This document shows, in pieces, positions 42,204 through 61,120 of a stretch of 64,000 bases of DNA (position 1 is its first letter; each line of letters starts with the position of its first letter). Both the position numbers and the translations under genes were made by a program. This DNA comes from an uncultured Acidimicrobiales bacterium (lineage in GTDB: Bacteria > Actinomycetota > Acidimicrobiia > Acidimicrobiales > SZUA-35), in NCBI GenBank assembly GCA_937976305.1, contig CALJSB010000028.1, forward strand, positions 1 to 64,000, given 5' to 3'. The notes under the pieces were generated by a model. The model was not told the DNA's origin, did not search any database, and was given only the letters and a program-made list of their open reading frames with translations.

Positions 42204-42893
42204 TCAGTCCTTGGTGGCCCGCAACGAGAGCGTGATCGGTGTCGGTGCGGCACCCTCGGCGAACTCCTCGAATCGGAAGCCATTGGCCGCGAACATGTTG
42301 AGCAAGGCAGCCAAGGGGAAGTGGGACGCGCCGAGCTTGTCTCGTATCCCCTCGTTGGTCCAGGAGTCCCGGGTCCAACTGTTGTCGAGGTATCCCGGCT
42401 TGATGATCACCCCGGTTGCCGGGTCACTTGCGTCAGCGAAACCACCACAGAAGCAAGGATGCACCCCGATGTGTACCAAGACGCCACCCGGCTCGAGTAC
42501 CCGGTAGATCTCTCGTAGCGTCGAGTCGTAGTCGGGCATGTCGGTGTGCGTCATCACGCTGACGACCGCCGGCACCGAGCCTGTTGCGAACGGCAACGAC
42601 GCAGCGTCGCCTTGGACGACCGGAAGCCTTGGCTTGGCGTATCCCAACATGGCGGACGAGATGTCGACGCCAACGGGATCTCGGCCAAGCGATGCGATGC
42701 GCTCGGCGTAGATACCTGTGCCGCATCCGACTTCAAGACACGTGCCGGTGCCCGGACCGAGAAGCTCGGCCAGTGCTTGGTCGATGCCGAGACGATCGGA
42801 AAAGACCGCTTCGTCGCCAACGGTTCGTTGGCGGACAAGGAACTCGTTCTCGTACCAGTCGGCGATTTCGTCGTACGGCGCTGCGGTCGGCAT
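42204..42893 (-). CDS. SAM-dependent class I methyltransferase
   Basis: 229 residues (MPTAAPYDEIADWYENEF). Motif I is CLEVGCGTGIYAERIASLG, with VGVDISSAML as motif Post-I, GDAASLPFATGS as motif II and LEPGGVLVHIG as motif III. It is a small-molecule-type methyltransferase with unknown acceptor. An ATG at 42893 is preferred to the track's GTG two codons upstream. It lies between the small membrane protein and the acyl-CoA dehydrogenase, 50 bases from the latter. Confidence 0.88.
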   Translation of the reverse strand: MPTAAPYDEIADWYENEFLVRQRTVGDEAVFSDRLGIDQALAELLGPGTGTCLEVGCGTGIYAERIASLGRDPVGVDISSAMLGYAKPRLPVVQGDAASLPFATGSVPAVVSVMTHTDMPDYDSTLREIYRVLEPGGVLVHIGVHPCFCGGFADASDPATGVIIKPGYLDNSWTRDSWTNEGIRDKLGASHFPLAALLNMFAANGFRFEEFAEGAAPTPITLSLRATKD

Positions 42894-57276: not shown

Positions 57277-57704
57277 GAGACGCTCAGCTCGGCGGTGGTG
57301 AGCACCACGGCAAGGGCGGACAGGTCGCTGTGCGACAGGGTGATGAGCCAGTTCGACACGCCGCGGGACTCGGCCAGCTTTTTGGCCCGGCCGGTCACGA
57401 TCAGCTCGGGCTGGCCAGAGTGGTGCTTGGTCACCTCAAAGTCGTGAAAGTCGGCGCCGCCGAGTCCCACCCCGAGCGCCTTCAACCCTGCCTCTTTGGC
57501 CGCAAACCGGGCGGCGAATCGTTGTGCTGCATCAGCGGCTTCCCGGCAGTAGCTCTGCTCGGCATCGGTGAAAACACGGCTGACGAAGCTCGGACGACGG
57601 GCCACGATCTGACGCATCCGGTCGACGTCGACAATGTCGGCACCAACCGACAGGATCGGCGCCCCAGCGGCCAGCCCGATCAGCGGGGTCAGGTCTGGGT
57701 CCAC
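57273..57704 (-). CDS. acpS: Holo-[acyl-carrier-protein] synthase
   Basis: AcpS transfers phosphopantetheine from CoA to acyl carrier protein. Metal and substrate motifs are SVGADIVDVDRMRQ and RFAAKEAGLKALGVG. The C-terminal SLSHSDLSALAVVL is normal for the family. 143 residues, GTG start, overlapping the giant glmS-like gene by 16 bases; this glmM-glmS-acpS order is the actinobacterial one. It converges with the VOC gene. Confidence 0.92.
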   Translation of the reverse strand: MDPDLTPLIGLAAGAPILSVGADIVDVDRMRQIVARRPSFVSRVFTDAEQSYCREAADAAQRFAARFAAKEAGLKALGVGLGGADFHDFEVTKHHSGQPELIVTGRAKKLAESRGVSNWLITLSHSDLSALAVVLTTAELSVS

Positions 57705-60700
57705 CGGGCTGCAACGTCAGAAATTGGGGCGGTGAGCAGCTCGACCGTAGACACGTCCGCCAACAGGTCTTCGCGGAACGACGGCTCGCGCTCGGTGACA
57801 ACATCGACGAGCTGGCGGTATCGGTTGCGGTAACCCTGGAGGATCGAACGAGCGGTCGGCACACCGAGATCGTCAACAAGCGAGACGTGACACAGGGTAA
57901 GACCCGTCGTTGTCCCGTCTTTCACCTCGGGAACGATCATCACGATTCGTCCGTCAGAACCAACCGTGACAATCGGTACCCGTTCGACGGCAACCCGATG
58001 CTTGTTACCTCGCAACGTCGGATCCTTGTCGGTCCGCGACCGCATGTTCGTGGCGATGCCGCCCTTGTCGGCCACGAAGATCTGTGCACCGTCGCCGACG
58101 TCTCCTTCGACCCGGTAACGGGTGAAGCCAGAGATCTCGCCAATGGCGGGTGTGATCGCCGCCAGGGTTCGCAACGTGCGGTAGGAGAGCCTGTCTCGAG
58201 GGCACCCAGTGGCCAGTACACCCTGGATGAGATCAGACTGCAGCAAACTCTCATCAGCTCGAGAGATTCCAACGGTGACGGTCTTGGCCTGGTGCTTGAT
58301 GGCATCGACTGGTCGGGTGAGCTCTTCGATCGCCAACGTCAACGCCGCGGCAAGATCCTCGACGATGACGCCAGGAGTTCCGACCTTGCCGAACTCGACT
58401 TGGTAGGACTCAAACCGGGTCGAACCGCCAGCGAATCGTAGAAGCGAAGCAACCCGTGTTGCGGTGGAGGCCTCCAAGTGTCCGTTGTACTGACCGACAC
58501 GCAACGAATCGAAGAATCGAGCCGCGTGGGTTTCGATGTTCTTGCCGAACTCAACGAACCAGTTCGGCCCGGCGGCGCCGACGTAACTCTCGATGACGGC
58601 GCGGATCTCACGAAGTGGTCGGGCCGACGCGTCGATCGACAGGGCGGCTTCGTATCCGAAGAGGTGACCGACAACGGTCGACAGCACGAACGCCAGCTGC
58701 GGGTGAGTCTCAGGAACGCCGATGACCTCGAGAGCAGAGCTGAAGCGGTTCTCCCCTTCGGTGGCGATCACAATCGGGGCTGCTTTGTGGGCCCGGAAGA
58801 TGGCAACTTCCTTCGCAACGTCGTCGGCATTGGAGCCGACAAGGCCAGCAGCGCACACCAGGATCATCGGCTCAGACGAGAGGTCGATGTGCTTTTTGTC
58901 TTCGGTCACATCGCACGCGATCGACTTGTAGCAGAGCTCAGAAAGCTTGACCCGCAGCTCACGGGCGGCCACGACATTCGGACCGTTGCCGACCATGGCC
59001 CAGTAGCGGCGGCTTTGGGCGTGTCGTTCGGCGGCCCGAGCGATCTCTTCTCGCTTGGCCAGCGTGCCTCGCATGGCATCGGGAAGATCTCGCAGCGCAG
59101 CGAGAAGTGCCTGGTTCGCCTCATGGTCCATGACGACGTTTGGCAGAACCTCGGCGACACCGATGGCCAACAGGTTGCCGGCTGCAATCTGGGCGTAGAA
59201 CGCCTTGGTGGAGGCCACGCTCATCTCAACGTCACGACCATCAGAGGTGTAGAGGACGCCATCTGACTTGTCGACGAGGTCGCTGCCCCGCCGGTTGACG
59301 ATCGCGATCACGGTGGCGCCGCGGCCGCGGATGAGATCGACGGTGCGGTTGGTGTCTGTGGTGGTACCGGACTGTGAGATTGCGACCACCAAGGTGTCGC
59401 TCATGTCATCTCGCAGATGGAACCCAGAGAGTTCGGTGGCCGTGATGGCTCGAACGTTCACTTCGGAGTTCACGAGCGCCGACTCGAAGGCAGCAGCCAC
59501 CGCTTGGCCCGCGATCGCTGCGGTGCCCTGCCCGATCACTTCGACACGACGAATCTGTCCCGACTCGAGATCCGCCCTGACTTCAGCCGTGAGCGTCTCG
59601 GAGGGGAGGCGAACATCGAGATGATCACCCTTGTTGACCAGCCGTCCACGAAGGGTCTTCGCAAACGAAACCGGTGACTCGCTGATCTCTTTGAGCAGGA
59701 AGTGCGGAGCGTCTCCGCGATCGATGTCTCGGGTGGTGACAGCGGGCGGCAGCCACTCATCTGAACCAACCGGCAGCTGCGTGCCGTCATAGGCGAAGCG
59801 GCTGACACCGGCGTCGTCACCGGCCTCGGCGCCCGAAATCCGAATGATCTGACCTTGACTGGCCACCGGATTGTCTGGATCGGCCGGCGTCTCGCCATCC
59901 ATCCGCATGTACTGCGTTGCATCTTCGACAACGCCGTAGGGCTCAGAGGCCACGACAAAGGCGTCCTCGCATCGGCCGACGAACACACCCTGGCCGCTGC
60001 CGCGAAGGCAGAGGTGAAGATCTTCCGGAGCCGACGTTGTGCTCACGCCGATGGCGACCGACCCCTCGAACTGAGCGACGGCACGCCGCACCGACTCATC
60101 GAGATCGAAACCTTCGGCGAGGCCACGGCTGACCAGCGTCGGGATCACCTTTGCGTCCGTGGTGATTTCGCCCGCGATCGAGAGCTTCTCGGCTGCGATC
60201 AGATCGGCGTAGTTGTCGACATCGCCGTTGAGCGTCGCTGTGACGTACGGACCCTGCACACCGAGCGTGCGCTCGGTCTCATCGCTATTGACCGGGTGAG
60301 CGTTCGGTTCGCTGATGATGCCGACCGAGGCCCAGCGGGTGTGGCCCAGAACGGTGATCTCTGCCTCTTCGTTTTCGAGTGCCTTGTGCAGGAGGTTGTC
60401 GGCCACGATGGCGGATCGCATGGCCGCGGTGTTGTCGCCGAGTTCGCCGATCTCCGCTGCGGCCTTGTAGACGAAGCTGAGGTAACCCTGGGGTGTCCGA
60501 ATCGCTCCGTTGGTGAACAGTCCTCCGCCGTTTCGCTCGTTGAGCAATGTGGCGATGCCGGGGCTCTCGAGATCGAGGTCGTGGTTACGCACGAGCAGAT
60601 GAAGGCCAGCCGAGTCACGACCACGCACCTCGAGGCGATCGATCGCGCTCAGAGCCTGCTGGACGCTCAGGAGCCCTGCCACTGCCGCCGAACTCGGATC

Positions 60701-61120
60701 GGGACCCGCAAGCGCCGCCACTTCACGAGCGGTCCGCAAACGGTCGCGTTCGATCGCCCACGTCGCATCCTTGGCCGCAATCAACGCCGCATTGACGGCT
60801 TCGAGATCTTCGACTCGATCACCCTCGGCTTCGAGCCATGCTTCGATCGCAGCCAAGCTCTCGTTGATCTGATCGAGTCGGCTGGTCAGCTCTGCTGGCA
60901 AGGTGGAATCGGCCAGCAAGGCAATAAGCCCGGGCTCACCACGAAGGCTCAGGTCGACATCGGCGAGCTTGTTCGCTCGCTCCAGCAGAACAGCTGAAAG
61001 CCCGGCAGATCCGGCCGTCGGGAAGTCGCGAAGCGCGTCATCGACTGCTGACAGAATCTCCGCCGTTGTTGGGGGCCGCCGAGTGGACCGGCGACGCGTG
61101 ATGGCGATGATGCCGCACAT
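57689..61120 (-). CDS. glmS: Giant glucosamine-6-phosphate synthase (GlmS-like)
   Basis: GlmS makes glucosamine-6-P from fructose-6-P and glutamine. Here the enzyme is 1,143 residues against about 610 normally. The glutaminase begins MCGII (Cys2 nucleophile), then about 140 extra residues precede RLEVRGRDSAG; GHTRWASVG, LNGDVDNY and TTDAKVI follow. PHFLLKEISESP and SQSGTTTDT mark the isomerase, and the E. coli catalytic residues Glu488, His504 and Lys603 align with Glu728 (LSELCY), His744 (EDKKH) and Lys946 (QAKTVTV). About 100 residues are inserted between the last two, and about 195 follow the normal end. It lies between glmM and acpS, where glmS is expected. Activity is inferred, not shown. 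Confidence 0.85.
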   Translation of the reverse strand: MCGIIAITRRRSTRRPPTTAEILSAVDDALRDFPTAGSAGLSAVLLERANKLADVDLSLRGEPGLIALLADSTLPAELTSRLDQINESLAAIEAWLEAEGDRVEDLEAVNAALIAAKDATWAIERDRLRTAREVAALAGPDPSSAAVAGLLSVQQALSAIDRLEVRGRDSAGLHLLVRNHDLDLESPGIATLLNERNGGGLFTNGAIRTPQGYLSFVYKAAAEIGELGDNTAAMRSAIVADNLLHKALENEEAEITVLGHTRWASVGIISEPNAHPVNSDETERTLGVQGPYVTATLNGDVDNYADLIAAEKLSIAGEITTDAKVIPTLVSRGLAEGFDLDESVRRAVAQFEGSVAIGVSTTSAPEDLHLCLRGSGQGVFVGRCEDAFVVASEPYGVVEDATQYMRMDGETPADPDNPVASQGQIIRISGAEAGDDAGVSRFAYDGTQLPVGSDEWLPPAVTTRDIDRGDAPHFLLKEISESPVSFAKTLRGRLVNKGDHLDVRLPSETLTAEVRADLESGQIRRVEVIGQGTAAIAGQAVAAAFESALVNSEVNVRAITATELSGFHLRDDMSDTLVVAISQSGTTTDTNRTVDLIRGRGATVIAIVNRRGSDLVDKSDGVLYTSDGRDVEMSVASTKAFYAQIAAGNLLAIGVAEVLPNVVMDHEANQALLAALRDLPDAMRGTLAKREEIARAAERHAQSRRYWAMVGNGPNVVAARELRVKLSELCYKSIACDVTEDKKHIDLSSEPMILVCAAGLVGSNADDVAKEVAIFRAHKAAPIVIATEGENRFSSALEVIGVPETHPQLAFVLSTVVGHLFGYEAALSIDASARPLREIRAVIESYVGAAGPNWFVEFGKNIETHAARFFDSLRVGQYNGHLEASTATRVASLLRFAGGSTRFESYQVEFGKVGTPGVIVEDLAAALTLAIEELTRPVDAIKHQAKTVTVGISRADESLLQSDLIQGVLATGCPRDRLSYRTLRTLAAITPAIGEISGFTRYRVEGDVGDGAQIFVADKGGIATNMRSRTDKDPTLRGNKHRVAVERVPIVTVGSDGRIVMIVPEVKDGTTTGLTLCHVSLVDDLGVPTARSILQGYRNRYRQLVDVVTEREPSFREDLLADVSTVELLTAPISDVAARWTQT

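Follow-up and report, generated by a model that had tools for sequence, protein, structure and literature searches.

The window, a 64,000-nucleotide stretch of an uncultured Acidimicrobiales genome, contains on its minus strand (57689‒61120) a gene encoding a probable glutamine‒fructose-6-phosphate aminotransferase (GlmS) of double length, and the ORF and its translation confirm the 1,143 residues initially annotated. Ordinary GlmS has approximately 610 residues and makes glucosamine-6-phosphate, the first step towards the amino sugars of the cell wall, and is regarded as fairly uniform among bacteria. As annotated, the gene for this long form lies in the glmM‒acpS locus, between glmM (phosphoglucosamine mutase; 61139‒62479, minus strand; Pfam PGM_PMM I‒IV) upstream and acpS (holo-ACP synthase; 57273‒57704, minus strand; Pfam ACPS) downstream. 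Since rplM, rpsI, and glmM precede it, with a gap of 18 nt to glmM, and since it overlaps the start of the acpS frame by approximately 16 nt, the gene looks like part of a single operon. The frame opens with ATG, 5′ of which is a GAGGAG motif resembling a ribosome site, and CGII follows straight after the Met. An Rfam search of 48‒64 kb of the window found no RNA of any kind, including the glmS ribozyme, and no defence-system profile matched.

Domain architecture and catalytic residues

The anatomy of the long form was derived from an alignment of E. coli GlmS, 30 ordinary GlmS of Acidimicrobiia, and 110 long forms, together with predicted models; all segments lie on the minus strand. The strand of the Cys1 nucleophile, MCGII (residues 1‒12; 61085‒61120), carries C2 in 110/110 long forms. 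It is followed by an N-terminal insert of 139 residues (13‒151; 60668‒61084), which the AlphaFold model predicts as a helical bundle or hairpin (helices 19‒30, 41‒58, 61‒70, 74‒99, and 106‒138). The remaining glutaminase (Ntn) domain (152‒445; 59786‒60667) retains invariant R166, R262, W263, N298, G299, and D322 and contains smaller family-specific inserts of 33 (184‒216), 16 (233‒248), 11 (280‒290), and 13 residues (411‒423). Two SIS (isomerase) domains (446‒828; 58637‒59785), supported by one Pfam SIS match (5e-19) and by Foldseek, include S582, Q583, S584, T587, E728, and H744. A second, helical insert (829‒940; 58301‒58636), which relative to E. coli GlmS comprises 100 residues (829‒928) and five more at 933‒937, lies ahead of the C-loop IKHQAKTVTVG (941‒951; 58268‒58300). 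This loop bears K946, equivalent to Lys603 and present in 110/110 long forms, and is internal here: a C-terminal extra domain of 192 residues (952‒1143; 57692‒58267), hereafter the tail, extends beyond it. Conservation is highest in the C-loop stretch 941‒954 (99% mean identity to the window protein) and lowest in the N-terminal insert (37%). The extra material had initially been put at about 140, 100, and 195 residues; these sizes agree with the 139, 100, and 192 from the alignment, but the four smaller glutaminase inserts had been overlooked.

The main catalytic and sugar-site residues of GlmS are retained throughout. In E. coli numbering, Cys1, Arg26, Arg73, Trp74, Asn98, Gly99, Asp123, Ser347, Gln348, Ser349, Thr352, Lys485, Glu488, His504, and Lys603 are invariant in 110/110 long forms. 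They include those of the Cys1 glutaminase (C2, N298 and G299 for the oxyanion, R262, W263, and D322) and those of the isomerase, namely the SQSxxT phosphate loop (S582-Q583-S584-T587) and E728, H744, and K946, which correspond to Glu488, His504, and Lys603 as first proposed. Around these residues the sequence has changed. Tyr28, Thr76, and Cys300 are replaced by Arg, Ser, and Gln, respectively, in all 110 long forms, Ser303 is Ala in all those aligned, and at His77, 84 of the 110 carry Val and 22 carry Ile. The GELKHGP motif reads EDKKHID in long forms (one Asn among them). In the core, long forms share 27% identity with E. coli GlmS and 30% with ordinary GlmS, compared with 45% between ordinary and E. 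coli GlmS.

TIGR01135 matches the long form with E = 4e-62, but the score of 210.6 bits is below the equivalog cut-off of 418.05 bits; likewise, the NCBIfam match to NF001484 (2e-67) is far under the curated cut-off. Pfam recognizes one SIS domain and nothing else in the protein, and among the sequences in the PDB it matches E. coli GlmS and human GFAT-1. Given the strong E-value and the sub-threshold score, the protein is homologous to GlmS and likely GlmS-like in function, yet outside the curated equivalog family.

The suggested comparison of a predicted structure with E. coli GlmS gave a match. AlphaFold, run on the full-length protein with a 16-row alignment (mean pLDDT 81.7, pTM 0.60), yields a model with the glutaminase and two SIS domains of the GlmS fold, and Foldseek aligns this model with two full-length enzymes, human GFAT-1 at E = 3.5e-27 and E. 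coli GlmS at about 1e-27 (TMt 0.71 for 1jxa). Isolated isomerase domains match it with TMt of 0.80‒0.88. Segment 945‒957 has pLDDT below 50, and the model thus does not place the internal C-loop.

Distribution and phylogeny of the long form

The initial annotation implied that such a protein is rare, which turned out to be wrong. A search for homologues with the same inserts across Acidimicrobiia found the long form in 99 of 247 genomes, making it the GlmS of approximately 40% of those sampled, and the inserts are common to more than 100 intact relatives. Ordinary GlmS above the family cut-off occurs in 130 of the same 247 genomes, and a comparison of the two genome lists by hand gave no genome with both; nor does any family code contain both kinds. 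The rest of the genomes have mostly fragments of long or ordinary GlmS. Within the class, both kinds occupy the same locus, in the order rplM-rpsI-glmM-long form-acpS-nnrD-alr or glmM-ordinary glmS-acpS-nnrD. The second, normal glmS that was to be looked for in the window genome (91.6% complete) was not found, and the long form is its sole GlmS-like gene. Other matches in this genome cover the glutaminase part only and seem to be class II amidotransferases of other kinds. Its best GlmU match, a 437-aa frame (G000:C37:19024-20163; 3e-31), is under the TIGR01173 cut-off, and another amino-sugar enzyme may thus be divergent in this organism.

In a scan of all phyla, nearly all of the best 80 of 508 relatives are labelled Actinomycetota/Acidimicrobiia. 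Viral contigs contained no relatives, and the plasmid matches were ordinary-GlmS-like only. Nine genomes from other Actinomycetota groups, outside Acidimicrobiia, also have the long form. A 49-row tree, built by a quick method with SH-aLRT support only, places the long forms in one group (support 100) on a very long branch. Since the out-of-class members included in the tree nest inside this group, their sequences suggest transfer or close kinship rather than a separate origin.

Several individual records deserve mention. Among the nine out-of-class genomes, G287 alone also has ordinary GlmS; its long copy (L143, G287:C313) lies beside a GH38 alpha-mannosidase gene, the contamination of the bin is 5%, and this is either a second copy or a contaminating contig. 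Four long forms at 56‒61% identity (L085, L090, L094, and L108) come from records whose titles name Acidobacteria, Bifidobacterium breve, and Thermoanaerobacterales; these are probably mislabelled Acidimicrobiia genomes from metagenomes. In a 2-contig assembly, the long form L151 (G149:C1:1179749-1183184) is interrupted near residue 740 and reads as two neighbouring frames, owing to a frameshift or a sequencing error. In the 98% complete genome G181 (L174/L176; G181:C10, glmM at 42787‒44070), neither long nor ordinary GlmS is detectable, and glmM is directly followed by a gene for a RarA-like ATPase. This bacterium is possibly an amino-sugar auxotroph, or the assembly may have a gap elsewhere.

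The C-terminal tail and the function of the enzyme

By sequence and prediction, the long form is a genuine GlmS variant, divergent and widespread, that is very probably functional. Since the main catalytic residues are kept, the gene is the only GlmS-like one in the genome and occupies the glmS locus, and no sampled genome of the class combines a long form with an ordinary one, we infer with high confidence that the protein is the working glucosamine-6-phosphate synthase of the window bacterium. Cys1 of the glutaminase domain would free ammonia from glutamine as in E. coli, the two SIS domains would hold fructose-6-phosphate, K946 on the C-loop would form the Schiff base, and E728 and H744 would perform the isomerization and ring opening. 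The C-loop, which is usually the free C-terminus of the enzyme, would be tethered on both sides, by the helical insert before it and by the tail after it.

The model of residues 830‒1143 (76-row alignment; mean pLDDT 94.6) runs from a long helix through two strands and further helices to three strands, and ends in helices at the C-terminus. The top Foldseek match of the tail in the PDB is the large GDH L-GDH180 (E = 7e-3), followed mainly by GAF-/PAS-like sensor domains. Many matches of the GAF/PAS type have probabilities of 0.8‒1.0, although none reaches E = 0.001 and the rmsd values are mostly large. Since no Foldseek match is significant alone, we describe the predicted domain as GAF/PAS-like only tentatively. 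The tail has no sequence relatives in Pfam or the PDB. In searches covering 79 genomes from the order and 297 from the phylum, the tail module turned up in long GlmS alone. Two weak matches elsewhere (6e-4) cover the same part of the profile, look like methylmalonyl-CoA mutase by sequence, and were taken as chance.

Approximately 20 residues of the tail are near-invariant, and several of them are charged (R1029, K1040, D1056, R1058, E1065, and R1100). These charged residues may line a pocket that binds an anionic ligand. The tail is retained in nearly all long forms seen. One natural exception is a protein of 1,038 residues (L141:3404-6520, G242:C38), which stops right after HQAKTVTVGISRR, just past the C-loop; the whole tail is gone, the remainder is retained, nnrD is the next gene, and the sister L116 is full length. 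Because exactly the tail has been lost, it is probably not needed for catalysis, and L141 provides a natural control for its role. Loss of function in this lineage is a possible alternative reading. The genome G181 described above belongs to the same genus as G242.

The C-loop of human GFAT-1 is made up of its C-terminal residues and covers the sugar site, and tags at the termini disturb activity (PMC7000685); a domain fused at this loop is thus well placed to affect activity. We propose an allosteric sensor role for the tail and consider it quite possible, if short of probable, that a small metabolite, probably an anionic one, is sensed by the predicted domain and that this alters how easily the C-loop shuts over the sugar site. 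That the long form is a lineage-specific GlmS with a sensor fused to the Schiff-base C-loop, in which a metabolite gates active-site closure, is a more doubtful proposal and, as such, rather unlikely. The earlier suggestion that the tail regulates the enzyme stays plausible but unproven, with the weak GAF/PAS-like layout of the model in its favor, whereas its suggestion of UDP-GlcNAc as the ligand is unsupported. In the isomerase domain of GFAT-1, UDP-GlcNAc is contacted by Arg343, Thr447, Thr458, Gly461, and His463 (PMC7000685). In a profile alignment inspected by hand, the long form has V608, V622, and Y624 at the positions of Thr447, Gly461, and His463, respectively, and the only similar contacts are those of Arg343 (R493) and Thr458 (S619). 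By sequence, the eukaryotic site is mostly not kept.

The tail and inserts may instead be structural, binding no ligand and helping a drifted GlmS to keep its quaternary structure or its stability. We regard this as a realistic possibility, although a minority one. GAF/PAS-like folds also act as dimerization modules, the N-terminal insert is helical and poorly conserved, and L141 has dispensed with the whole tail and kept the rest; the near-invariant, partly charged residues rather suggest a pocket, and the presence of the tail in nearly all long forms seen also argues against a purely structural role. It is very unlikely that the protein has ceased to be GlmS and, as a related amidotransferase, now acts on another sugar phosphate, with glucosamine-6-phosphate coming from another route. 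The very long branch, the low core identity to E. coli GlmS, and the altered residues around His504 and the CGTS loop would fit such a change, but the position beside glmM is fixed, long and ordinary GlmS are mutually exclusive, Glu488, His504, Lys603, and SQSxxT are retained, and nagB, which might have served as a substitute, was not detected in the window genome. An assembly artefact, a frameshift gene fusion, or a degenerate copy is practically untenable, since, fragmented as the window assembly is (160 contigs), the same frame, approximately 1,100‒1,190 aa long, recurs at more than 100 independent loci, single-contig genomes included (G002 and Aquihabitans sp. G128), and these intact relatives rule out a chance or frameshift fusion.

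Taken as a whole, a divergent double-length GlmS that stands in for ordinary GlmS in a large part of the Acidimicrobiia is the best explanation, and we consider it probable, with the sensor role of the tail as its more tentative part.

Comparison with known GlmS enzymes and sensor domains

The long form is a known enzyme in a variant not described in the literature found; no paper on a long GlmS was found. A large actinobacterial group, with many soil and water bacteria of the Acidimicrobiia, has a strongly diverged GlmS of double length and no ordinary one. Annotation that depends on the TIGR01135 cut-off would overlook this enzyme, and the pathway would be called incomplete. A whole domain is placed on the C-loop in a family where terminal tags reportedly interfere (human GFAT-1, PMC7000685). 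If the sensor reading is true, a metabolite-gated C-loop would be a form of bacterial amino-sugar control not in the literature found, in which a sensor tail would replace RNA-based controls or those of the eukaryotic UDP-GlcNAc site.

The secondary-structure order predicted for the tail (residues 955‒1143), helix-ββ-α-βββ-helix, fits the antiparallel ββ-α-βββ fold of GAF/PAS-like domains, and repeated but weak Foldseek matches tentatively link it to sensors such as the PtsP GAF domain, CodY, phosphodiesterase GAF domains, and the KinD sensor. It has no sequence match to those families, and its best E-value is 7e-3. The long form shares the glutaminase-SIS-SIS-C-loop order and the main catalytic residues with bacterial GlmS (E. 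coli, TIGR01135/NF001484), and its site adjoining glmM with the ordinary GlmS of Acidimicrobiia. It differs from E. coli GlmS in its 27% core identity, the inserts of 139 and approximately 100 residues, the 192-residue C-terminal domain, and in having Arg in place of Tyr28, Val in place of His77 in most members, and EDKKHID in place of GELKHGP. Human GFAT-1 is the best Foldseek match, and the loops of the glutaminase domain are extended in both proteins. However, GFAT-1 terminates at the C-loop, whereas the long form continues beyond it.
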